Shown: positions 2 to 10,016 of the stretch, piece by piece
Layout of the letters: each line of letters opens with the position of its first letter
Numbering within the stretch: the stretch's first letter is position 1
Source of the DNA: Coriobacteriales bacterium
GTDB lineage: Bacteria; Actinomycetota; Coriobacteriia; Coriobacteriales; UBA8131
Direction: 5' to 3'
DNA: 10,050 nt
Assembly: GCA_031254255.1 (NCBI GenBank)
Contig: JAIRUT010000123.1
Coordinates: 1-10,050 of the forward strand
The notes under the pieces: generated by a model
The model's input: the letters and a program-made list of their open reading frames with translations, nothing else
What the model was told of the DNA's origin: nothing
Database searches by the model: none
Made by a program: the position numbers and the translations under genes

Positions 2-1462
2 ATGGATAACTTTAGTAAACAGGAGATTTTAAGTGTCGGGATCGACATCGGGACATCAACGACCCAGTTGGTGTTCACGAAGATCATGCTCAAGAATTTG
101 GCATCGGCCTTCAATATCGCCCGCATCGCCATCGTTGGCAAGACGATCATCTATCGTAGTGAGATCTACTTCACACCCCTGACCGCTGATGACCGGATTG
201 ACATGGATTCTGTCCTGCAGATCATCGATCGTGAATACCGCCACGCTGGCATCGAGAAAACAGACATCGACATCGGTGCGGTGATCATCACGGGCGAGAC
301 CGCCCGTCGTGCCAATGCCCGGGAAGCGGCGGCCAAACTCAGCAGTTATGCTGGCGATTTTGTAGTGGCAACAGCTGGGCCGGAGCTGGAAAGCATCATC
401 GCCGGCAAAGGCGCCGGGGCTGATAGGTATTCCAAAGACCATAAGGCGGTAGTCGCCAATATAGATATTGGTGGAGGCACCTCAAATATTGCGGTCTTTG
501 ACCGTGGCGATGCCATTGGTGCTGGCTGTCTGGATATCGGTGGTCGTCAGGTCAAGCTGGATCGTGACAACACCGTTATCTACATCAACGAGAAGATCGC
601 AAAGATCATCGAGCAGGAACGGTTGGGAATTACACTCGGCACCAAGGCGAATGCTTGTGAGCTGAGGAAGCTGGCCCGGATCATGGTCAACCAACTGGCG
701 GCCTCTGTTGGCCTTTGCCCACGTGACGCCTATTTCGAAATGATGCTGACCATCAAAGACATGCCATTGGCCACGCAGCCTGATTTCATCATGTTCTCAG
801 GCGGGGTAGCAGACATTTACTACCGTCAAAGCATCTGTGATGAGGATGTCTTCCGCTATCAGGATATGGGGGTCATCCTCGCAGAGGAATTGCGTAATTC
901 GAGCGTATTTGCCAACAGCACCACGATCGTCGTGGCCGAGCCGGAGGAGACCATCAGGGCAACAGTTGTCGGGGCTGGTTCGCATACCGCCAACATCAGC
1001 GGCACCACAGTGACCTTTGATCGCGAAGCGCTGCCGCTGAAGAATGTGCCGGTGATCAGGATTCCGGATTCCGTCGATCCTGCTGATTCAATATTTGCCG
1101 ATGAAATCGCCAAGCGAATCAAGTGGTTTGAGCTGGAGGGGGAGTTACCCCAGCTGGCCCTGGCTTTCAAAGGCATCAGTTCTCCAGATTTCTCAACTGT
1201 CGAGCTCATTGCCCGACATCTTATAAAGGCCATGGTCAATATTCTGCAGGCGGGTCAGAGCCTGATCATCTTGGTGGAAGAAGACATGGCCAAGGCGCTC
1301 GGGCAGACCCTGAAGCGCCTTTTGGCGTTGGATGGTTGGAAAAATTGCGTGGTCTGCATCGACAGCGTGGAAGCTGGGGAAGGAGATTACATCGATATTG
1401 GTAACCCTATCGCTGGCGGGATGGTCCTGCCGGTGATTGTTAAGACACTGATCTTCAAGTGA
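2..1462 (+). CDS. eutA: Ethanolamine ammonia-lyase reactivating factor EutA
   Basis: EutA is an ATP-dependent chaperone-like factor that exchanges inactivated cobalamin on ethanolamine ammonia-lyase for fresh adenosylcobalamin. The 486-residue product has two nucleotide-binding signatures of the actin/Hsp70-like ATPase fold: GIDIGTSTTQ at residues 13-22 (phosphate 1) and NIDIGGGTSN at 153-162 (phosphate 2). The stretches ITGETARRANAR, DFVVATAGPELESIIAGKGAGA and the C-terminal GDYIDIGNP...GG.VLPVIVKTL match E. coli EutA as I recall it. Length is close to the E. coli protein (about 467). The ATG at base 2 gives an N-terminus that aligns with known EutA proteins, so the gene is probably complete, but its ribosome binding site lies outside the window. 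It stops 18 nt before eutB, consistent with co-transcription with the enzyme it services. Confidence 0.95.
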   Translation: MDNFSKQEILSVGIDIGTSTTQLVFTKIMLKNLASAFNIARIAIVGKTIIYRSEIYFTPLTADDRIDMDSVLQIIDREYRHAGIEKTDIDIGAVIITGETARRANAREAAAKLSSYAGDFVVATAGPELESIIAGKGAGADRYSKDHKAVVANIDIGGGTSNIAVFDRGDAIGAGCLDIGGRQVKLDRDNTVIYINEKIAKIIEQERLGITLGTKANACELRKLARIMVNQLAASVGLCPRDAYFEMMLTIKDMPLATQPDFIMFSGGVADIYYRQSICDEDVFRYQDMGVILAEELRNSSVFANSTTIVVAEPEETIRATVVGAGSHTANISGTTVTFDREALPLKNVPVIRIPDSVDPADSIFADEIAKRIKWFELEGELPQLALAFKGISSPDFSTVELIARHLIKAMVNILQAGQSLIILVEEDMAKALGQTLKRLLALDGWKNCVVCIDSVEAGEGDYIDIGNPIAGGMVLPVIVKTLIFK

Positions 1463-1480: not shown

Positions 1481-2848
1481 ATGAAGCTTAAGACGGTAAT
1501 GTTCGGAACAACGTACCAGTTCAAGGACCTGAATGAGGTCCAGGCGAAAGCCAGTGAACAAAAATCCGGGGATGAGCTTGCCGGGTTGGCGGCCCTAAGC
1601 CGGGAGGAGCGGGCAGCGGCAAAGATCATCCTCTCAGAGACACCACTCTCAGATATCCGCAACCATCCGGCAGTTCCCTATGAGATCGATGATGTGACCC
1701 GTGTTATCCAAGACCAGGTGAACGAGACGGTCTATCGCGAGATCCAGAACTGGACAGTTGGTGAACTGCGTAACTTCCTGATGGAATATAGCTCCACCGG
1801 CCCAGTTATCAAGCGCGTTTGTGCCGGTCTGACCAGCGAGATGATCGCAGCTGTGACAAAGGTCATGTCCAACATGGATCTGGTCTATGCGGCCAGCAAA
1901 CTGGACTTCACTACCCGTTGCGTCACTGAACTTGGTCTGCACAATGTGGCCATGTGCCGGGCTTTGCCGAACCATTCCACAGATGACATCGATGCCATCT
2001 TTGCCGAGGCCTACGAGGCATTGTGCTATGGCATTGGCGACGCGATGATCGGCGTGAACCCTGTGCAGGATACCGTGGAATCCACCACATATCTCCAAAA
2101 CAAGCTCTATGAGCTGCGCATGAAGTGGGAGATTCCGACCCAGAACTGCGTGCTCTCGCACATTACCACACAGGTCGCAGCGATGAAGAAGGGTGCTCCG
2201 ACCGACATGATCTTCCAATCCTTAGCTGGCACCCAGAAGGCCAATGAGTCCTTTGGCATCAGTATCGACATCCTCGATGAGGCCTATGCCTTGGGAAAGG
2301 AACTCTGCGTATCTGGTGCCAAGAATCCGATGTATTTCGAGACCGGCGAAGGTTCGGAGCTTTCCGCCAATGCCCACATGGGTGTGGATGAGCTGACCCT
2401 TGAAGCTCGGACCTATGGCCTCGCCAAACGCTACGATCCTTTCACGATGATGTCCGTCGTCGGTTTCATCGGCCCCGAATACATATACGACTCCGTCCAG
2501 CAGCTGCGCGGCGGCTTGGAAGAGCTCTTCATGGGCAAGATGCATCTGATTCCGATGGGCGTCGACGTCTGCTACACGAATCACATGCCAGCCAGCCAAA
2601 ACGATTCCGAGACCTTGGCCATGCTCGTCGGCTTGGCCAAGATGCCCTATTACGTGACCTCGCCGATGGGCGACGATGTGATGCTCAACTACCAGCTGCT
2701 CGGCAACCATGACTACCAGACGGTGCTGGAACTGACCGGACTGCGCCGACATCCGGCCTTTGAGAAGTGGCTGCAGAAGATGGAGATCTTAGACGACAAG
2801 TTGATGCCCACCGAGCGCTTCGGCGACGCCTCGATATTCCTGCAATAA
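1481..2848 (+). CDS. eutB: Ethanolamine ammonia-lyase large subunit EutB, with altered substrate pocket
   Basis: This is the TIM-barrel catalytic subunit of adenosylcobalamin-dependent ethanolamine ammonia-lyase, which converts an amino alcohol to aldehyde plus ammonia. I use the ATG at 1481 (455 residues; E. coli has 453), preceded by GAAGGAG at 1468-1474; an in-frame TTG at 1475 would overlap the spacer. Conserved stretches include IQDQVNETVY, IGDAMIGVNPV, MYFETGEGSELSA, VVGFIGPEY, FMGKM and GDDVMLNYQ. Numbering is the same as in E. coli EutB through the active site: Arg160, Asn193, Glu287 and Asp362 are kept. Gln162, which contacts the substrate hydroxyl and amino groups in the E. coli structure, is Leu (codon TTG 1964-1966), and pocket residue Met392 is Val (GTG 2654-2656). 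The usual GTFSARLQPN segment reads NVAMCRALPN here. The family is certain; the substrate is not, and a related amino alcohol is possible. Confidence 0.95.
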   Translation: MKLKTVMFGTTYQFKDLNEVQAKASEQKSGDELAGLAALSREERAAAKIILSETPLSDIRNHPAVPYEIDDVTRVIQDQVNETVYREIQNWTVGELRNFLMEYSSTGPVIKRVCAGLTSEMIAAVTKVMSNMDLVYAASKLDFTTRCVTELGLHNVAMCRALPNHSTDDIDAIFAEAYEALCYGIGDAMIGVNPVQDTVESTTYLQNKLYELRMKWEIPTQNCVLSHITTQVAAMKKGAPTDMIFQSLAGTQKANESFGISIDILDEAYALGKELCVSGAKNPMYFETGEGSELSANAHMGVDELTLEARTYGLAKRYDPFTMMSVVGFIGPEYIYDSVQQLRGGLEELFMGKMHLIPMGVDVCYTNHMPASQNDSETLAMLVGLAKMPYYVTSPMGDDVMLNYQLLGNHDYQTVLELTGLRRHPAFEKWLQKMEILDDKLMPTERFGDASIFLQ

Positions 2849-2869: not shown

Positions 2870-3832
2870 ATGTTCAATGAAGATGCATTACGGGACTCCA
2901 TCCGCACGCTCGTGTCGGATGTGATTCGCGAGGAGGTTGTCAAGAATGGCGGTAGCAGCGCGGGCACTGCGCCTGGTCTGGCTGGTCAGGCCGGTCAGGC
3001 TGGACAGTCACCGAATCCTATTCCAGTTACCGCTGCCTCGAATCTGCCGAGCACCGAGACGGTCGAGGAGGTTCCGGATGCCACGCTGATAACCATGGAG
3101 GATACATTCTGGGTTCCCAACGCCCACGACGAAGAGGGCTATCGGAGGATGAAGCAGTTCACATCCGGGCGCCTTGGAATCTGGCGTGCCGGTCCACGGC
3201 CCTTGACCAAGGCCTACGTGCGCGCCAAGGCAGATCATGCCGCAGCTCAGGGAACAGTTTGGTCCAATGTGGGCGAGCAGGTCATCAGTTCGTTGGGGTT
3301 CATTCCGTTGCAAAGCCGTTCGGCTGACAAGGCTGAGTATCTGAAAAAGCCGCCGACTGGTAAACGTCTGACCGACGAGTCAGTGGAGATCGTCAAGAAG
3401 AATGCCCAGACCGGCAAGCAAGTGCAGATCGTCTTCTCCGACGGACTTTCCTCCAAGGCCATTGAAAAAAATGCCAAGGACTTTCTGCCTGCTTTGAAGC
3501 AGGGTCTTCAGGCCTTTGGCATCAGTGTTGCCGATCCGATCTTCTTCGTCAACAACGGGCGTGTTGCTGTCTCTGAGGAGATCGGCGAGCTGACCGATGC
3601 TGAGGTAGTAATCATGCTCACCGGCGAGCGCCCCGGTCTGAACTCCCAGACATCAATGGGTGCCTACCTGGCCTACAGGCCGACGATCGGCATGGAGGAG
3701 TCCCGACGTACCGTGATCTCCAACATTCATGCCAAGGGTACCCCACCGGTGGAAGCCGGTGCCCAGATTGCAGAACTAGCGCAATCAATGCTTCAACACA
3801 AGATGTCCGGCGTCGATTTGAAACTTGTTTAA
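2870..3832 (+). CDS. eutC: Ethanolamine ammonia-lyase small subunit EutC
   Basis: EutC is the small subunit that helps bind cobalamin in the EutB6C6 complex. The product is 320 residues against about 295 in E. coli; the extra length is at the N-terminus. Residues 1-26 form a likely amphipathic helix (MFNEDALRDSIRTLVSDVI...), the position of the known BMC-targeting segment of EutC. A Gly/Ala/Gln/Ser-rich linker follows (about 27-60), containing the repeat GLAGQAGQAGQS at 36-47. The catalytic part starts near residue 65 and has family signatures: SGRLGIWRAGPRPLT, VFSDGLSSKAI, ADPIFFVNNGRVAV, GERPGLNSQTSMGAYLAY and ISNIHAKGTPPVEAG. The start has GAAGGAGA at 2853-2860, nine bases upstream. It begins 21 nt after eutB, as expected for subunits made together. 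Confidence 0.95.
   Translation: MFNEDALRDSIRTLVSDVIREEVVKNGGSSAGTAPGLAGQAGQAGQSPNPIPVTAASNLPSTETVEEVPDATLITMEDTFWVPNAHDEEGYRRMKQFTSGRLGIWRAGPRPLTKAYVRAKADHAAAQGTVWSNVGEQVISSLGFIPLQSRSADKAEYLKKPPTGKRLTDESVEIVKKNAQTGKQVQIVFSDGLSSKAIEKNAKDFLPALKQGLQAFGISVADPIFFVNNGRVAVSEEIGELTDAEVVIMLTGERPGLNSQTSMGAYLAYRPTIGMEESRRTVISNIHAKGTPPVEAGAQIAELAQSMLQHKMSGVDLKLV
2975..3010 (+). repeat. Degenerate 9-bp tandem repeat in the eutC linker
   Basis: Four consecutive 9-base units, GGTCTGGCT, GGTCAGGCC, GGTCAGGCT and GGACAGTCA, encode GLA-GQA-GQA-GQS at residues 36-47 of EutC. The units lie in frame, so gain or loss of one would alter only the length of the flexible linker between the targeting helix and the catalytic domain. 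Units two and three differ at a single base. Confidence 0.75.
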
Positions 3833-3846
3833 GGGGGACGGTAAAA

Positions 3847-4503
3847 ATGCAAGGAGATATCATCCGTGCAAAGCTTGTCTGCCAGAAGATTATCCCCAGC
3901 GTGGACGCAGGGCTTGCCAAAAGGATGAATTTGACGGAAGGACAGAGGAGCCTGGCCTTGTTCACGGCCTCTGTGGATGACATTACTTTCGTTGCCGCAG
4001 ATGAGGCAACCAAGAAGGCCGACGTCAAGGTCGTTTACTGCGAGAGTACATTCTCCGCCCTGGATGACCCCTATGCCAAGCTCTCCGGCGAGGCTATCGC
4101 CATCTTGGCTGGGTCGAACCCGGCCGAGGTACAAGCAGGTTTGGAAGCTGCTGTTGACCATGTTGCCAACGGAGCGTTCTACATCAATGCCGACGAAGCA
4201 GGTGAGTCGATCTACATGGCACATACCATCTCGGCCTGCGGAAGCTATTTTGCCGAAATGTGCAATGTCCAAGTCGGCACAGCGCTGGCCTACTGCATGG
4301 CACCTCCGGTTGAGATGTTTTATGCAGTGGATGCTGCTCTGAAGGCAGCCGATGTCCGCATCGTGGAATTTTATAACCCGCCGCTGAACACCACCAATAT
4401 ATCCGGTGCCATCATGGCCGGGACTCAGTCTGCTTGTCGGGCTGCCTGTGATGCATTTGCATCAGCCTGCATATACGTAGCAAATAATCCAATAGAGGTA
4501 TGA
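3847..4503 (+). CDS. eutL: BMC shell protein EutL (tandem-domain trimer)
   Basis: EutL is a trimeric shell protein made of two circularly permuted BMC domains. It forms facets of the microcompartment and has a pore that can be gated. The product is 218 residues, against 219 for E. coli EutL. Shared features include SVDDITFVAADEATKKA (residues 42-58; the Asp44-Asp45 pair lies in the small-pore region of known EutL), SGEAIAILAGSNPAEVQAGL, the second-domain block AYCMAPPVE..YAVDAALKAADV and the C-terminal GTQSACRAACDAFASA. The ATG at 3847 follows the GGGGGAC region at 3834-3840, and the gene begins 14 nt after eutC. EutL is characteristic of eut-type compartments, so its presence argues that the shell is of Eut rather than Pdu type. 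Confidence 0.95.
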   Translation: MQGDIIRAKLVCQKIIPSVDAGLAKRMNLTEGQRSLALFTASVDDITFVAADEATKKADVKVVYCESTFSALDDPYAKLSGEAIAILAGSNPAEVQAGLEAAVDHVANGAFYINADEAGESIYMAHTISACGSYFAEMCNVQVGTALAYCMAPPVEMFYAVDAALKAADVRIVEFYNPPLNTTNISGAIMAGTQSACRAACDAFASACIYVANNPIEV

Positions 4504-4544
4504 ACATGAAGACAAGCATGAAAAGAAAGGAGGATGATGAATGA
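4500..4544 (+). CDS. Possible 14-codon mini-ORF bridging eutL and eutE
   Basis: An ATG at 4500-4502 overlaps the eutL stop (ATGA, 4500-4503). It opens a frame reading MNMKTSMKRKEDDE and ends in TGA at 4542-4544, overlapping the eutE start (ATGA, 4541-4544). In-frame ATGs at 4506 and 4518 are alternative starts; GAGG at 4495-4498 is better spaced for 4506. The AAAGGAGG used by eutE lies inside the frame. The peptide is Lys/Glu/Asp-rich and resembles nothing I know. It may serve only to carry ribosomes from eutL to eutE, or be chance. Confidence 0.25.
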   Translation: MNMKTSMKRKEDDE

Positions 4545-6115
4545 CCAAGCTGATTGACAAGGACTTGTTGTCAGTTCAGGAGACCCGAGATCTTCTGCGC
4601 CAAGCAACTGCGGCTCAGGCCAAGCTCGCCAAGATGAGTCAGACAGAGGTGGATACCATCTGCCTGGCCATCAAGGACGCTGCATTGGCAAATGCTGAGC
4701 GGTTGGGAAAGATGGCCAACGAGGAGACCGGATACGGCAAGGCGCCGGACAAGGCCATCAAGAACTATTTTGCTGCACAGGTCGTCTATGACTACATCAA
4801 GGACATGAAAACTGTCGGAATCGTCAATCATGATGAAGAGCATAGGCTCTTCGAAGTGGCTGTGCCGGTTGGCGTTATTGCCGGATTGATTCCCTCTACA
4901 AATCCGACGTCGACGGTTATCTACAAGGCATTGGTTGCCATCAAAGCCGGTAACGCGATTATCTTTTCGCCGCATCCTGGCGCGAAGAACTGCATCATCG
5001 AGACCGTGGAGGTTGTCAGGCGGGCGGCTGAGGCTGCCGGTCTGCCAGCCGGATGCATCAGCGTTTTGAAGCAAGCCACAAAAGAGGGTACAGACGAGCT
5101 GCTCTGCAACAGGCAGACCTGCCTGATTCTGGCAACCGGTGGTGAGGCAATGGTCAGGGCAGCCTATTCCTCCGGCAATCCGGCCATCGGCGTCGGTCCG
5201 GGTAATGGGCCTGCCTATATCGAGAAGAGCGCCGACGTCCCACTTGCCGTAAAACGCATCATCGACTCCAAGACCTTTGACAATGGCGTGATCTGCGCTT
5301 CCGAGCAGTCAATCATTGTCGAGCGGGAGACCGAGGCCCCTGTCCTCGCTGAACTGCAGAAGCAGGGCTGCTACCTGCTCAGTGAAGAGGAGAAGCAAAA
5401 AGTCGATGCCATCCTGATGACGGCGAATATGACCCCAAATCAGGCGGTTGTCGGGAAAACGGCGGTTCAGGTAGCTGAGATCGCTGGGGTGATAGTGCCT
5501 CAGGAGACAAAACTGCTGATCGGCCGGGAAACCCAAGTCGGCAAAAAGATACCCTTCTCGCGCGAGAAACTCTGTCCGGTATTGGCCTTTTTTGTGGTCA
5601 ATGACTGGCAGGAAGCCTGCGCCTTGGCCATCAAAATACTGAACAACGAAGGTGCTGGACACACCATGATCATGCACTCCAACAATGCGGATCTGATTCG
5701 CGAGTTTGCATTGGAGAAGCCAGTCAGCCGCCTGCTGATCAACACACCCGGAGCGCTCGGCGGCATCGGTGCGACAACCATGCTCGCACCCGCCCTTACA
5801 CTGGGCTGCGGTGCAGTTGGTGGCAGCTCCACGTCAGACAACATCACACCGCAAAATCTCCTCAACTTCCGGCGTATCGCCTATGGCACCCAGGAGCTGG
5901 CCGACATTCGCCAGTCTGTGTCCATGGCGACCAAGGCTGGCGGCCAGGGAGCTCAGGCATACCAGAAGCTGAGCCCAAGCTCTGAGCACCCATGCAGGGA
6001 AAGTGCTGTTTCGCAGACAGTCACAAGCTCGGTTTTCAGCGTCGACGAAGAAGATCAGATCACCTCATTGGTTGACCTGATCTATGCAAAACTCAAGGAC
6101 CAAAAGATTATTTAG
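4541..6115 (+). CDS. eutE: CoA-acylating aldehyde dehydrogenase EutE with C-terminal targeting helix
   Basis: The enzyme oxidises acetaldehyde (or a similar aldehyde) to acyl-CoA with NAD+ and CoA inside the compartment. The product is 524 residues against about 467 for E. coli EutE. The catalytic nucleophile is Cys252 in NGVICASEQ. Other family blocks are AVPVGVIAGLIPSTNPTST, KAGNAIIFSPHPGAKNC, ATGGEAMVRAAYSSGNPAIG, GVGPGNGPAYIEKSADV and the C-terminal GGIGATTMLAPALTLGCGAVGGSS. Unlike E. coli EutE, the N-terminus starts almost directly at the catalytic domain. At the other end is a Ser/Gln-rich linker (about 470-500) and a terminal amphipathic helix, EEDQITSLVDLIYAKLKDQK at 503-522, typical of an encapsulation peptide. 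The start follows AAAGGAGG at 4526-4533. PduP-like specificity for propionaldehyde cannot be excluded from sequence alone. Confidence 0.94.
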   Translation: MTKLIDKDLLSVQETRDLLRQATAAQAKLAKMSQTEVDTICLAIKDAALANAERLGKMANEETGYGKAPDKAIKNYFAAQVVYDYIKDMKTVGIVNHDEEHRLFEVAVPVGVIAGLIPSTNPTSTVIYKALVAIKAGNAIIFSPHPGAKNCIIETVEVVRRAAEAAGLPAGCISVLKQATKEGTDELLCNRQTCLILATGGEAMVRAAYSSGNPAIGVGPGNGPAYIEKSADVPLAVKRIIDSKTFDNGVICASEQSIIVERETEAPVLAELQKQGCYLLSEEEKQKVDAILMTANMTPNQAVVGKTAVQVAEIAGVIVPQETKLLIGRETQVGKKIPFSREKLCPVLAFFVVNDWQEACALAIKILNNEGAGHTMIMHSNNADLIREFALEKPVSRLLINTPGALGGIGATTMLAPALTLGCGAVGGSSTSDNITPQNLLNFRRIAYGTQELADIRQSVSMATKAGGQGAQAYQKLSPSSEHPCRESAVSQTVTSSVFSVDEEDQITSLVDLIYAKLKDQKII

Positions 6116-6171: not shown

Positions 6172-6450
6172 ATGGAAGGTTTGGTTGCATTGGGAATGAT
6201 CGAGACCAAGGGATTGGTTGGAGCAGTGGAAGCTGCAGATGCCATGGTCAAGGCGGCAAATGTCACTTTGATCGGCAAGGAACATGTTGGCGGCGGTCTG
6301 GTGACCGTGATGGTTCGCGGTGATGTAGGGGCCGTGAAAGCCGCAACTGATGCTGGTGCTGCGGCAGCCGATCGTGTCGGCGAGCTGATCTCGATACATG
6401 TCATTCCGCGTCCGCATGCTGACGTCGAAAAGATTCTGCCCAAGAACTAA
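6172..6450 (+). CDS. eutM: BMC hexameric shell protein EutM (PduA-like)
   Basis: This small single-domain BMC-H protein of 92 residues forms the hexagonal facet tiles of the shell. It opens with the classic [20 protein letters not shown] and contains [19 protein letters not shown] and [15 protein letters not shown], which match both EutM and PduA. The C-terminal half ([19 protein letters not shown], then VEKILPK) is closer to PduA as I recall it. The pore loop reads KEHVGGG at residues 36-42, against KQIGGG in E. coli EutM and EKIGSG in PduA, so a His and a Glu lie near the pore. The ribosome binding site CAGGAGGT (6158-6165) is the closest to consensus in the window, fitting an abundant structural protein. 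I call it eutM by context. Confidence 0.93.
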
Positions 6451-6544
6451 TGGACGATGCGGACCTCTTCATTTGATGTGATTCAAGTCGCAGGCTCTGA
6501 TGGGCTTGCTTCTTGGGTCACAAAAAAGACAAAAAGGTGAATCG
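6451..6544 (+). other. 94-nt intergenic region between eutM and eutT
   Basis: This is the longest gap in the window. It ends in a purine-rich run with the eutT ribosome binding site AAGGTG (6534-6539). Only a weak imperfect hairpin (CAAG 6484-6487 with CTTG 6505-6508, inner CAG/CTG) is visible, without a T-tract. I see no convincing promoter, terminator or EutV-type dual hairpin. An in-frame ATG at 6500 would extend eutT by 15 residues but has no good ribosome binding site. Confidence 0.5.
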
Positions 6545-7345
6545 ATGAAGCTGATTACAGAATCTGATATGAAACAAATTATCAAAACCGGCGATGGCAT
6601 TGTTGGTGGGGAGCTCTTTCTCTCTGAAGACTGTATGCTGACGCCATCAGCCCAAGCCATTGCCATCGATTTCAAATTGAAACTGAAGCAGAATGGAAAG
6701 GTAGACGGAGGCTGGATCAAAAACATCAGGGGCGAATCCGGCAAGGGCAAAAGGCCCGAAGCTGGAAAGCCTTGTGCTGGCAAGAGTGAATCCGGCAAAG
6801 ACGGAGCTGGAACGGACAGGACTGGAAAGCCTGACCATATGACCCAGCTGAATGCCATGACTCTGGTGGCCAAAGACAATGCCCGTATCCGTCTGCGTGG
6901 AGAGATCGACCTGCTCATAGCAGAGCTGTTGAAAGTTCAGATGCGAGCTGCCGGGCTGAGTCAGCAGTTGGTTGAAGATCTGGAAGATGTCTACCGTTTT
7001 ATCGGGAAGATCTCGCGTGCGGAGGTACGAGACGAACCTTTTGAGGTCGCCGAGGTCATCGGATTGGACTATTGCAAGGTTCGAGAAATCTCCCATCACC
7101 CCCAGCAGTATTTCAGCAGAGGACATCTGTTTGACATCTCTTATCGTGATGGCGAACTGACTGTTTTGCTGAATGGCCTCCGGGCCCTGTCGCGGCGTTG
7201 CGAGTTGACATTTTATGAGGCTTTCAAAGAAGCAGACGGTACAGTGTCGAGGCCGGATCTGATGGAAGCCTACAACCGCCTCTCCTCCATTCTTTACATC
7301 CTCTGCCTGCGGGCGGTTTCCGGTCAATACGAGGTGCAGTCATGA
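6545..7345 (+). CDS. eutT: Corrinoid adenosyltransferase EutT, type without the metal-binding motif
   Basis: EutT transfers the adenosyl group of ATP to cob(I)alamin, making the coenzyme for EutBC. With the ATG at 6545 the product is 266 residues (E. coli 267), and the N-terminus MKLITESDM aligns with known EutT. Residues 1-45 hold an LIT...LTP module (LTP at 32-34). Residues 61-98 are a Gly/Lys-rich linker. The helical adenosyltransferase part includes ARIRLRGEIDLLIAELL and the C-terminal YNRLSSILYIL (Asn244-Arg245 conserved). The HX11CCX2C metal site of enterobacterial EutT is absent: cysteines are isolated, with no CC pair. That fits the metal-independent EutT class described from Listeria and other Firmicutes. 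The stop overlaps the next start by four bases, indicating translational coupling with pduL. Confidence 0.9.
   Translation: MKLITESDMKQIIKTGDGIVGGELFLSEDCMLTPSAQAIAIDFKLKLKQNGKVDGGWIKNIRGESGKGKRPEAGKPCAGKSESGKDGAGTDRTGKPDHMTQLNAMTLVAKDNARIRLRGEIDLLIAELLKVQMRAAGLSQQLVEDLEDVYRFIGKISRAEVRDEPFEVAEVIGLDYCKVREISHHPQQYFSRGHLFDISYRDGELTVLLNGLRALSRRCELTFYEAFKEADGTVSRPDLMEAYNRLSSILYILCLRAVSGQYEVQS
6734..6832 (+). repeat. Degenerate repeats in the eutT linker
   Basis: GAATCCGGCAA occurs at 6734-6744 and 6788-6798, and CTGGAAAGCCT at 6762-6772 and 6822-6832. Together with related GGCAAG/GCTGG words they build a linker of about 38 residues rich in Gly, Lys, Ala and Ser. The two pairs have different spacings (54 and 60 bases), so this is a decayed or patchwork duplication rather than a clean tandem array. 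Confidence 0.5.
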
Positions 7346-7992
7346 GTAATCAAATAGATGTATTAACCGAAACGCTGACCGATCTGGTACTGGACCGTCT
7401 ACGCACCGGTCTGGCCGCTGAAGGCTGGTTTCAGGTGGAAGCCTCCGGTCGCCATGTGCATTTATGCGTTGACGATGCCAAGGCACTGTTTGGTGATGAC
7501 TATGCACTGACTTGGATAAAGGACCTCTCTCAACCCGGCCAGTTTGTCGGCAAGCAACGAATGTCCGTGGTCGGGCCAGCTGGACGTCTGGACAATGTCG
7601 TCGTCATTGGGCCGGAGCGTGAGCGGACACAGATAGAGGTATCCATGACTGATGCCCGTCTGCTGGGCGTCAACCCACCTTTTCGGGACAGCGGTAATCT
7701 TGCCGACACACCAAGTATCAGGATCGAGAACGGAGATATTGCAGTGGCGACGCGTGGCGGCCTGATCGTTGCGGAACGCCACATTCACATGCGTCCGGAG
7801 GCTGCTCAAGCCTTGGGCCTGAAGGATGGTGACCGCGTGGACTTCGCTTTGGATTCCCCGCGCCCACTGACCTTTCGGGATGTCAAGGTGCGTGTCTTAG
7901 AGACTGCAAGCAATTTCATGCATATCGATTATGACGAGGCCAATGCCGCAGGATTCAGTCCAGGTATGTTCGGTTCAATCAAACGGAATTGA
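7342..7992 (+). CDS. pduL: PduL-type phosphotransacylase (EutD role)
   Basis: PduL converts acyl-CoA plus phosphate to acyl-phosphate and CoA. This regenerates CoA inside the compartment and lets acetate kinase make ATP. The 216-residue product has two related PduL domains. Probable metal-ligand histidines lie in GRHVHL (His38, His40) and ERHIHM (His147, His149), with His194 in NFMHIDYDEANA. Other signatures are GPAGRLDNVVVIGPERERTQIEVSMTDARLLGV, with conserved arginines, and RDSGNL. Residues 1-24 look like an amphipathic helix (SNQIDVLTETLTDLVLDRL), as in PduL proteins with an N-terminal encapsulation peptide. In Firmicutes eut clusters this gene is often called eutD although it is unrelated to Pta-type EutD. 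Its ATG overlaps the eutT stop (ATGA, 7342-7345). Confidence 0.93.
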   Translation: MSNQIDVLTETLTDLVLDRLRTGLAAEGWFQVEASGRHVHLCVDDAKALFGDDYALTWIKDLSQPGQFVGKQRMSVVGPAGRLDNVVVIGPERERTQIEVSMTDARLLGVNPPFRDSGNLADTPSIRIENGDIAVATRGGLIVAERHIHMRPEAAQALGLKDGDRVDFALDSPRPLTFRDVKVRVLETASNFMHIDYDEANAAGFSPGMFGSIKRN

Positions 7993-8016: not shown

Positions 8017-8394
8017 ATGGACATTGAGAGGCTGACCGAAGAGGTCATCCGCCGACTCTTGGAGAGAATTCGTCAGGAGGAAGCTTATAAGATCGAAGAG
8101 GCTATTGGCCAAGTGAAAGCCTGCATGACCGAAGTAGCTGCATCCGAGGCACCCCAGACAGTGGGGGAGAGCCCCTGTTGCTGCCCGACAGTGGGCAACG
8201 TAGTTGCGACAGGCAGCTCGGATACAGCTGGCAGCTCTGCAGAAGCAAGCTCTAAAAAACAGCTCATCACGGAAGAAAAAGCGAGACAGGTGCCTGCAGG
8301 CAGCAAGGTTATTTATCCCAAGGGCAGCATCATCACGCCGTTGGCCAAAGACATGTTCAAAGAGCGTGGAGTTTGCTTCGAGCTCGAACAATAA
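8017..8394 (+). CDS. Small uncharacterised BMC-operon protein with EutQ/EutT-like LIT-TP module
   Basis: I do not recognise a named family for this 125-residue protein. Three parts are visible. Residues 1-35 form a charged amphipathic helix ([20 protein letters not shown]...), similar in style to BMC encapsulation peptides. Residues 36-79 are a low-complexity Ala/Ser/Thr/Gly linker with a Cys triplet (Cys54-56) and Cys36. Residues 80-125 form a compact module, [17 protein letters not shown] followed by [19 protein letters not shown]. That module resembles the N-termini of EutQ (LIT..DIR...IITPEAREVA) and EutT (LITESDM...LTPSA) as I recall them. The start has AGGAGA at 8005-8010. Its place after pduL corresponds to a hypothetical gene in Listeria-type eut clusters. 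A role as cargo, scaffold or corrinoid/metal handling is conjecture. Confidence 0.85.
8152..8207 (+). repeat. Cluster of overlapping inverted repeats inside the small gene
   Basis: Four short stems fall in 56 bases: CCCCA 8152-8156 with TGGGG 8162-8166; GGGG 8164-8167 with CCCC 8172-8175; TGCCC 8182-8186 with GGGCA 8193-8197; GCAAC 8195-8199 with GTTGC 8203-8207. GTTGC also occurs at 8177-8181 and GACAGTGGG is repeated at 8157 and 8187. Several stems are mutually exclusive. They lie in the linker-coding part of the gene, about 230-290 bases before pntA. Confidence 0.55.
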
Positions 8395-8438: not shown

Positions 8439-10016
8439 ATGAGAATTGGTATTCCTCATGAAACAAAAAAAGGTGAGGCCCGAGTCGCTGGGACACCGAA
8501 AACGGTAACCCAGTTGATCAAATTGGGTTATACGGTCTGTGTGGAAGCCGGCGCCGGTTCCTCGTCCTCATTTCCCGACAAGGACTACATCTCGGCTGGG
8601 GCTGAAATAGCCGATCGAGAAACCGTCTGGGATTCCGATATAGTCACCAAGATCAACGCACCAAGCGATGAAGAGATTGATATGCTGCATGAAGGGGCAA
8701 CGCTCATCTCCATGCTTGATGCTCCGCGCGCGCCGCAACTGCTTCAGAAACTGGCTGACAAAGGCATCGATGCCCTGGCCATGGATGCGGTGCCCCGCAT
8801 CTCCCGCGCCCAATCTCTGGATGTCATCTCTTCGATGGCCAACATCGGCGGTTATCGGGCGGTTATTGAGGCCTCGAACCTCTTCGGGTCCTTCTTTACC
8901 GGTCAGGTGACGGCTGCAGGCAAGGTGCCTCCCGCCAAGGTCTTTGTATCTGGTACCGGAGTGGCCGGCTTGGCTGCCATCGGTACGGCCCGCTCCCTCG
9001 GAGCCATTGTTCGGGCTACGGATATCCGTGCCGAGACAGCCGAACAGGTGGAATCGATGGGCGCAGAGTTCGTGGCCGTGGCCTCAGCCGACCAACAGCT
9101 AAGCTCAGATGGCTACGCCAAGGAGGCCACAGAGGACTATGCCGCCGCCGCCGCGCGGATGTATACCGAACAATGCAAGGAGATGGATATAATCATCACC
9201 ACTGCCCAGATTCCCGGGCGAGCCGCTCCTCGTCTTCTGACCGAGGAGATGGTGGCTTCCATGAAGCCTGGATCGGTGATTGTCGACATGGCTGCCTCCA
9301 GTGGTGGCAATGTCGCTGGTTCGGTGGCCGATCAGGTGGTGGTCACCGACAATGGTGTGAAGATCATCGGCTATACCGATCTGCCGGGACGTCTTCCCAC
9401 CCAGGCCTCCCAGATGTTTGCCACTAACATCCTGAACCTGCTGAAGCTCGTGACTCCGGCCAAGGACGGTCAACTGACCTTGGACACTGAGGACGTCGTG
9501 CAGCGGGGCATGCTGGTCAGTCGCGAACATCAGGTGACTTGGCCGCCTCCGGAGATCTCTGTTTCAGCCGCTCCGGCAGCTGCAGCAGCTACGTCTCCAC
9601 AGGCGCCGGTTGAGAAGAAGGAAAAGAAGCGGCTGGATCGCCGTGTCCTCTATGTCGGAGCCGGGCTTCTGGCGGCGCTTTTCATGGTTCTCTTCTTTAT
9701 TTCCCCGGAAAGCCTGCTCGGGCACTTTATGGTGTTGATGCTTTCTGTGGTCATCGGCTTTTATGTCATCGGCAATGTATCCCATTCCCTGCATACCCCA
9801 TTGATGAGCGTGACCAATGCCATCTCCGGAATCATCGTTGTCGGCTGTTTGAACGGCCTGCAACTGTTGAACAGGGATCTACCCCTGACTGATCCGATCA
9901 ATCTGGCCATCTCGATAATCTCGATTGCTGGCATCGGCTTGGCCTCGATCAATGTCTTTGGTGGATTTACCGTGACTCAGCGAATGTTGAACATGTTCAG
10001 AAAGGGGCAAAAATGA
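8439..10016 (+). CDS. pntA: Proton-translocating NAD(P)+ transhydrogenase subunit alpha PntA
   Basis: PntA carries the NAD(H)-binding domain and part of the membrane domain of the transhydrogenase, which exchanges hydride between NADH and NADP+ coupled to proton movement. The start at 8439 (MRIGIPHE) aligns with E. coli PntA and has TAGGAGAG at 8426-8433; a longer frame from 8373 would overlap the previous gene. The product is 525 residues (E. coli 510). Signatures are [24 protein letters not shown], the Rossmann motif GTGVAG at 172-177, [15 protein letters not shown] and [14 protein letters not shown]. An Ala/Pro linker (about 375-395) leads to four predicted membrane segments (about 403-421, 427-447, 455-480, 487-510), including [20 protein letters not shown] and [14 protein letters not shown]. 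This is the undivided E. coli-type alpha subunit, not the split PntAA/PntAB form. Finding it in a eut operon is unusual. Confidence 0.96.

Follow-up and report, generated by a model that had tools for sequence, protein, structure and literature searches.

The eut genes of the window

The window (the whole stretch of DNA that was analysed, 10,050 bases) is an entire contig, G000:C30, of a genome assembly (G000) of 849,686 bases in 163 contigs that is 51% complete. Its genes lie on the plus strand in the order eutA, eutB, eutC, eutL, eutE, eutM-like, eutT-like, PduL-type eutD, a short relative of TIGR02536 and pntA (Table 1), and the curated profile cut-offs are reached by EutA, EutB, EutC, EutL (with NF011934), EutE, PduL and PntA. 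EUT2-type loci are described in PMC4207490 as having EutB, EutC, a reactivating factor, shell proteins and a PduL-like phosphotransacylase, and profiles find all of these in the window, with EutA as the reactivating factor. The TIGR02536-like eut protein is 125 residues long in the window and about 228 in Acetobacterium, and its C-terminal part alone is matched. A pntA gene with 78% identity is present near the eut operon of the sister genome G019, on the opposite strand (L049:3805-6797). Searches with Rfam families over seven sources gave nothing at the gathering score, and a profile scan of the ten window proteins found no glycyl radical enzyme of the CutC type.

Table 1. Features of the window, and positions in other loci of two small genes mentioned in the text
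Feature	Position	Strand	Support or remark
eutA, lyase reactivating factor	2..1462	+	NF007992 603.6 bits, cut-off 598; begins at contig edge
eutB, large subunit, Leu162/Val392 clade	1481..2848	+	NF011649 577 bits, cut-off 554
eutB Arg160 codon, kept	1958..1960	+	
eutB Leu162 codon TTG	1964..1966	+	Gln in 402/433 EutB rows
eutB Glu290 codon	2348..2350	+	Gln in Gln162 group
eutB Met324 codon	2450..2452	+	Asn in Gln162 group
eutB Asp362 codon, kept	2564..2566	+	
eutB residues 388-396, MPYYVTSPM	2642..2668	+	last long predicted strand (390-394); M388-P389-V392 is the clade signature
eutC, small subunit	2870..3832	+	NF003971 274.2 bits, cut-off 230
eutL, shell protein	3847..4503	+	NF011934 260.8 bits, cut-off 198; TIGR04502 262.6, under cut-off 300
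eutE, acetylating acetaldehyde dehydrogenase	4541..6115	+	TIGR02518 732.9 bits, cut-off 620.1
eutM-like shell protein	6172..6450	+	NF012018 131.8 bits, 1.2 bits under cut-off 133
eutT-like cobalamin adenosyltransferase	6500..7345	+	NF011595 107 bits, well under cut-off 226; PF01923 44.7, cut-off 24
PduL-type phosphotransacylase (eutD)	7342..7992	+	NF011652 220.1 bits, cut-off 209
Short relative of TIGR02536 eut protein C-terminus	8017..8394	+	26.6 bits, cut-off 152.6
pntA, transhydrogenase subunit alpha, complete	8439..10016	+	3' of eut genes
~90-residue protein copies	L048:1294-1554, L145:1519-1779, L146:446-706, L005:18857-19138, L002:18838-19143		
HAD-type hydrolase	L189:1187-1837, L180:10791-11438, L183:8715-9347, L177:16837-17451, L011:17065-17688		

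Residue changes in EutB and their phylogeny

Translation of eutB from the ATG at 1481 gives R160, L162, N193, E287, F329, D362 and V392 (the last a GTG at 2654-2656), and the first-pass annotation, which had called Leu162 and Val392 in an EutB that keeps Arg160, Asn193, Glu287 and Asp362, is borne out on each of these residues. In E. coli EutB we take the substrate hydroxyl to be held by Arg160, Asn193 and Glu287, and the substrate amino group by Glu287, Gln162 and Asp362. Alignments with the E. coli (3ABO) and Listeria (2QEZ) proteins are nearly full length, with one single-residue gap near the C-terminus. An AlphaFold2 model of the window protein (pLDDT 88.9) has 3abo_A as its best PDB match (TM 0.97) and contains strands at 158-161, 284-288, 322-327 and 390-394, with low confidence at 291-295 and 366-368; these strands are taken as four of the eight of the barrel, and residues 162, 290, 324 and 388-393 are predicted to lie on or just beside them. 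The product passes the family cut-off and has the 3ABO-like fold with Arg160, Asn193, Glu287 and Asp362 present and Gln162 absent, and its sequence makes it an EutB-family protein and putative lyase rather than a proven ethanolamine lyase.

To place these residues in the family we used 433 EutB rows, made up of 332 proteins from three homology searches and 99 different locus sequences, plus the window and E. coli. Each search contributed the best 120 of about 8,000 scored proteins, one of the three taking the EutB of a Glaciecola MAG as its query, and the resulting collection is redundant and biased towards the three query proteins. At position 162, 402 of these rows have Q and 31 have L, and R160, N193, S247, E287 and F329 are invariant. 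M388, P389 and V392 are each found in 30 of the 31 Leu162 rows (the exception, L009, is incomplete there) and in none of the 402 Gln162 rows, which have either M (352 rows) or I (50 rows) at position 392. Because Ile is this common at 392, Met392 alone is no rigid family mark as Gln162 is; the first-pass annotation had treated both as marks of the pocket, and it is Gln162, present in all 402 rows outside the Leu162 group, that keeps this standing. The same annotation spoke of two coordinated changes, and coordinated they are, but there are more of them: 161 L>A, 290 Q>E, 324 N>M, 348 D>E and 393 G>T also characterize the Leu162 group, and residue 416, an Arg in 401 of the 402 Gln162 rows, is Leu, Phe or Ile in 30 of the 31 Leu162 rows. 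When the set was thinned to 128 Gln162 proteins (at 85% identity) and 23 Leu162 proteins (at 95%), 69 positions were at least 99% conserved in the former, and the commonest Leu162 residue differs from them at 162, 290, 324, 348 and 416; the changes at 162, 290, 324 and 348 are fixed in at least 96% of the 23.

In a 96-sequence tree computed after removal of columns 161, 162, 290, 324, 348, 388, 389, 392 and 393, a single branch (SH-aLRT 100, length 0.39) separates all 31 Leu162 rows from the others, and the Leu162/Val392 clade that had been envisaged does exist. Its neighbour is P0018, a Gln162 protein, and one change accounts for the trait; because Leu162 arose once on the tree, the gene-linkage associations reported below are not independent counts. 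Records in the clade come from Acetobacterium, Alkalibaculum sporogenes, Coriobacteriales, Actinomycetes, Firmicutes and Bacillota. Twelve of the 13 Leu162 genomes have one copy of EutB, and in the other, G009, it is split over two contig pieces. The window eutB compared with L001 has a dN of 0.059 and a saturated dS of 2.07, and dN is far under dS against both L001 and L006 (for three more distant relatives dS was not computable); decay of the gene, which had been discounted from the intact frame, is ruled out by this purifying selection.

The other presumed amine contact is lost elsewhere in the family: Asp362 is replaced in 25 of the 433 rows (24 Ala and 1 Gly), with Gln162 kept, examples being L032, L111, L113-L118, L120-L124, L142-L144 and others. 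Twelve of these 25 rows were placed in the tree, where they group in a single clade distinct from that of Leu162.

Transporters and choline-demethylation-type genes near eut

In whole-genome searches, none of the 13 Leu162 genomes, several of which are incomplete (that of the window is 51% complete), gave a match to the ethanolamine transporter EutH (PF04346), and all nine Gln162 genomes selected for comparison did, including G104 of the window's own order; two of these nine, G010 and G011, also hold an Ala362 EutB. When locus flanks only were searched with one tblastn query, EutH was near 11 of 44 canonical loci and 11 of 24 Ala362 loci. Eut loci without a nearby EutH are thus common, 33 of the 44 canonical ones being of this kind. 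Several Leu162 loci carry either an EamA-family transporter accompanied by a small, ~90-residue protein or an amino acid permease. The permeases of the Coriobacteriales and Acetobacterium loci are 63% identical, and the top NCBIfam match of the permease, far under its cut-off, is a trimethylamine N-oxide permease; the EamA-like genes of Coriobacteriales are under the Pfam cut-off. Neither module is visible in the window because the contig ends. The ~90-residue protein adjoins several EamA-like genes, some of them in eut operons and others next to mthB, has no Pfam or NCBIfam match (one copy was scanned in each), and is absent beside the EamA genes of L070. The Acetobacterium loci also contain a histidine kinase and a response regulator, which are presumably EutW and EutV.

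In Eubacterium limosum, according to PMC12155760, MthK phosphorylates choline and MthB demethylates the phosphocholine, the product of choline demethylation is N,N-dimethylaminoethanol, which accumulates, and mthK adjoins mthB, mthC and mthA in divergent orientation. The A. dehalogenans eut genes are preceded, on the same strand and in this order, by genes for an APH-family kinase, EamA, an MttB-family methyltransferase, a corrinoid protein and a methyltetrahydrofolate:corrinoid methyltransferase. Another genome of that order, G146, which appears to belong to the E. limosum group, has MthC, MthA, EamA and MthB with a divergent neighbouring MthK; the A. dehalogenans kinase and methyltransferase are 33% and 28% identical, respectively, to those of G146. 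Among 67 genomes of the order, an MthK-like kinase of at least 93% identity is present in 6 of the 10 with Leu162 (the query's own included) and in none of the 57 others, four of which have a relative at 32-34%. The first-pass annotation had pointed to the operon contents of such a clade as informative, and co-directional genes for the kinase, EamA and MthB-like, MthC-like and MthA-like proteins, a cluster of the choline-demethylation type, are indeed found upstream of eut in 5 of the 13 Leu162 genomes. In four of the six kinase genomes the cluster lies on the same contig as eutB, at a distance of 9.7 to 10.6 kb and with eut genes between; in G003 the cluster is followed by an RnfC-like gene 83% identical to that of the A. 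dehalogenans eut operon, and in G009 the contigs are too short to place it relative to eutB.

The kinase was not found in the Leu162 genomes G002, G005, G007 and G130, and none of their compared MttB matches (2/2, 5/8, 4/11 and 5/5, respectively) exceeds 31% identity to either MthB. The MttB matches of G004, G005, G007 and G130 have no in-frame TAG. A dimethylamine methyltransferase (PF09505) was considered as a partner of Leu162 and is ruled out, with none in the 67 genomes of the A. dehalogenans order. A second corrinoid protein and a PocR-AraC regulator lie 3' of the A. dehalogenans eut operon (L041:7570-9529), with no methyltransferase adjoining them.

The window itself, the whole contig of a 51% complete genome, contains no mth genes. 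On another contig of the same genome is an MttB-family gene 53.5% identical to the MthB of the limosum-type genome, adjoined by an EamA-like gene and the small protein (L145:1519-4466), and relatives of these two (76% and 62% identical, respectively) open the Leu162 eut operon of the sister genome G019 (L048:126-1554). G030 has mthB and mthK with the same EamA-like and small-protein module, and in G013, which belongs to the genus of the window, mthB (55%) and mthK (47%) are adjacent. Judged from these sequences, a transporter-like module is common to choline demethylation and Leu162 eut. MthK was not found in the window's genome (G000), where the MthB-type gene is present, and G019 (93% complete, with a Leu162 EutB) has MttB at 31% only and no MthK match. 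MthB presence does not predict EutB, since MthB-type genes (53-62% over the best stretch) occur in 13 of 100 relatives and EutB in 4. Five Coriobacteriales MttB genes (L250, L251, L252, L253 and L254, one of them in G013) have a single in-frame TAG in a similar place, presumably as in the pyrrolysine trimethylamine methyltransferase.

Is such a linkage peculiar to Leu162? Loci, extended by at most about 10 kb in either direction, were classed by their EutB residues (24 Ala/Gly362 and 44 canonical-only; two Ala362 and three canonical loci are under 12 kb), and relatives of MttB or MthK were found in 9 of the 24 Ala/Gly362 loci and in 1 of the 44 canonical loci (Fisher p 0.0002, kinship ignored). 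The Leu162 count of 5 in 13 genomes gives a Fisher value of 0.0016 in a comparison that is not strictly like for like, the genes being partly just outside 10 kb. A canonical EutB is also held by 11 of the 24 Ala362 loci (e.g. L010, L177 and L181), and by L176 and L177 among the nine with MttB or MthK relatives. The canonical exception, L207, has a split EamA, an MthB-like gene fragment and, further out, a split MttB, and from these pieces it is read as carrying relics of the same cluster. In L180 and L183 (and in part in L189) the gene order is kinase, EamA, mthB-like, HAD-type hydrolase, eutB, eutC. The HAD-type hydrolase, of about 215 residues, was found in Ala362 loci only: five of them have it close to mthB-like genes, and in three of these five it lies between the mthB-like gene and eutB. 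It could release dimethylethanolamine from its phosphate. All five Ala362 loci tested have an in-frame TAG near codon 330 of MttB, which we take to mark the pyrrolysine trimethylamine methyltransferase. Ala362-type eut loci with TAG-MttB or pyl genes are L180, L183, L184, L188, L190, L239 and L243; pyl profiles detect PylB, PylC and PylD above cut-off in L190, PylB and the PylS N-terminal domain in L239, and the PylS N-terminal domain in L243. Ala362 is not always accompanied by methylamine genes, since the Ala362-only loci L178, L179 and L187 carry EutH instead.

Substrate of the Leu162 enzyme and comparison with known systems

The above observations show coordinated remodelling under purifying selection in one clade, and this argues for an altered substrate rather than decay, but at which end of the molecule is the substrate altered? 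The change is likely to be at the amine end rather than in the carbon skeleton, because a two-carbon aldehyde is expected from the match of EutE to the acetaldehyde dehydrogenase profile and the gene neighbourhoods point to N-methylated amines. We lean, tentatively, to the reading that Leu162 EutBC is a lyase for an N-methylated ethanolamine, with N,N-dimethylethanolamine the most likely one. EutB and EutC would split it to acetaldehyde and a methylamine within the predicted microcompartment. The presumed hydroxyl contacts are kept and one of the presumed amine contacts is replaced by a hydrophobic residue, a change of the kind that an N-methylated amine would require, and loss of the Gln162 amide together with the change at 388-393 may make room for N-methyl groups. 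The adenosyl radical mechanism is probably retained, since R160, N193, E287 and D362 are kept. EutE and the PduL-type EutD would convert acetaldehyde to acetyl-CoA and acetyl phosphate.

A wider proposal, possible though more doubtful, is that of a B12-dependent microcompartment for choline-derived N,N-dimethylethanolamine, in which the amine pocket would have been remodelled twice (Leu162 and Ala362), genes for demethylation of the phosphocholine type having become associated with it on both occasions, and which would allow whole choline to be used without CutC; Leu162 EutBC would there convert dimethylethanolamine to acetaldehyde and dimethylamine.

The main rival, which we consider unlikely, is that the enzyme is still an ethanolamine ammonia-lyase in which Leu162 is tolerated and compensated by the neighbouring changes, ethanolamine entering via other transporters. 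That all other contact residues are kept would suit it, but Gln162 in all 402 other rows, the long stem of the clade and its coordinated changes would not. Likewise, the standing together of eutA, B, C, L, E, M-like, T-like and D, the single copy of EutB in nearly every Leu162 genome, and the presumed EutW and EutV of Acetobacterium favour ethanolamine, but the linkage to choline-demethylation-type genes speaks for something else. The failure to find EutH in the Leu162 genomes, some of them incomplete, counts against ethanolamine, tempered by the frequency with which canonical loci lack it nearby.

It is improbable that choline itself is cut, to acetaldehyde and trimethylamine, which would make the enzyme a B12-dependent equivalent of the glycyl radical lyase CutC. 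Leu162 EutB retains Glu287 and Asp362 though choline offers no N-H, and the upstream mth clusters would compete for choline; the MttB with in-frame TAG is tied to Ala362 loci and occurs in a member of the window's genus, G013, which would fit a trimethylamine product, but the MttB matches of four Leu162 genomes lack the codon. The G019 eut operon, which has the EamA-like module in a genome without an MthB-type gene, is another point in favour of choline. The first-pass annotation had proposed a different amino alcohol, with 1-amino-2-propanol and 2-amino-1-propanol as the C3 candidates, and the altered substrate is upheld by the coordinated clade changes and purifying selection, but the C3 skeleton now seems very improbable. 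Residues 162 and 392 are more hydrophobic, and a PduL-type phosphotransacylase could perhaps take propionyl-CoA (NF011652 is named phosphate propanoyltransferase); on the other hand EutE is above the acetaldehyde dehydrogenase (TIGR02518) cut-off, so that a two-carbon aldehyde is expected and aminopropanols are disfavoured, and no profile-scanned protein was named for aminopropanol use. A bulkier N-substituted ethanolamine such as di- or triethanolamine is highly improbable: the same pocket logic would apply, Acetobacterium is in the clade, and homoacetogens related to it reportedly ferment triethanolamine through acetaldehyde (Schink and co-workers), but we know of no natural source of these compounds for Coriobacteriales members, and the neighbouring methyltransferases point to methyl groups.

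If N,N-dimethylethanolamine is the substrate, Leu162 EutBC would give a fate to the product at which published anaerobic choline demethylation stops, N,N-dimethylaminoethanol; acetyl-CoA would be supplied to acetogens and Coriobacteriales, and methylamines would be freed without the choline lyase CutC. Residues that set amine specificity in ethanolamine ammonia-lyase would also be revealed, and labelling every EutB an ethanolamine enzyme would be unsafe. Within the partial coverage of our literature search there was no paper linking dimethylaminoethanol with ethanolamine ammonia-lyase, and nothing usable on Gln162, on EutB with dimethylaminoethanol or on a triethanolamine lyase; the passages of PMC12670283 consulted likewise gave nothing usable on these three subjects. 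The EutB family itself is known, and the possible microcompartment for methylated ethanolamine would be new.

Compared with the EutB proteins of 3ABO and 2QEZ, the window protein has the same fold (TM 0.97), length, Arg160, Asn193, Glu287, Phe329, Asp362 and EutC partner, but differs in Leu162, Glu290, Met324, Met388-Pro389, Val392 and Leu416; and whereas the canonical eut system has EutH, the Leu162 genomes, as far as they are complete, appear to do without it. The Ala362 lineage resembles Leu162 in the loss of a presumed amine contact and in some loci with MthK and MthB-like genes, but differs in that Gln162 is kept, a canonical EutB accompanies it in nearly half of its loci, and an HAD phosphatase and a TAG-MttB are present in several. 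Relative to EUT2 as set out in PMC4207490, related Leu162 loci lack EutH and have an amino acid permease or EamA-like modules instead, and five Leu162 genomes add the choline-demethylation-type cluster. With the Mth system of E. limosum, as reported in PMC12155760, the window's genome shares an MthB-type gene (53.5% to that of a limosum-type genome) and its genus MthB and MthK; dimethylaminoethanol accumulates in E. limosum, whereas here the variant EutBC would consume it.
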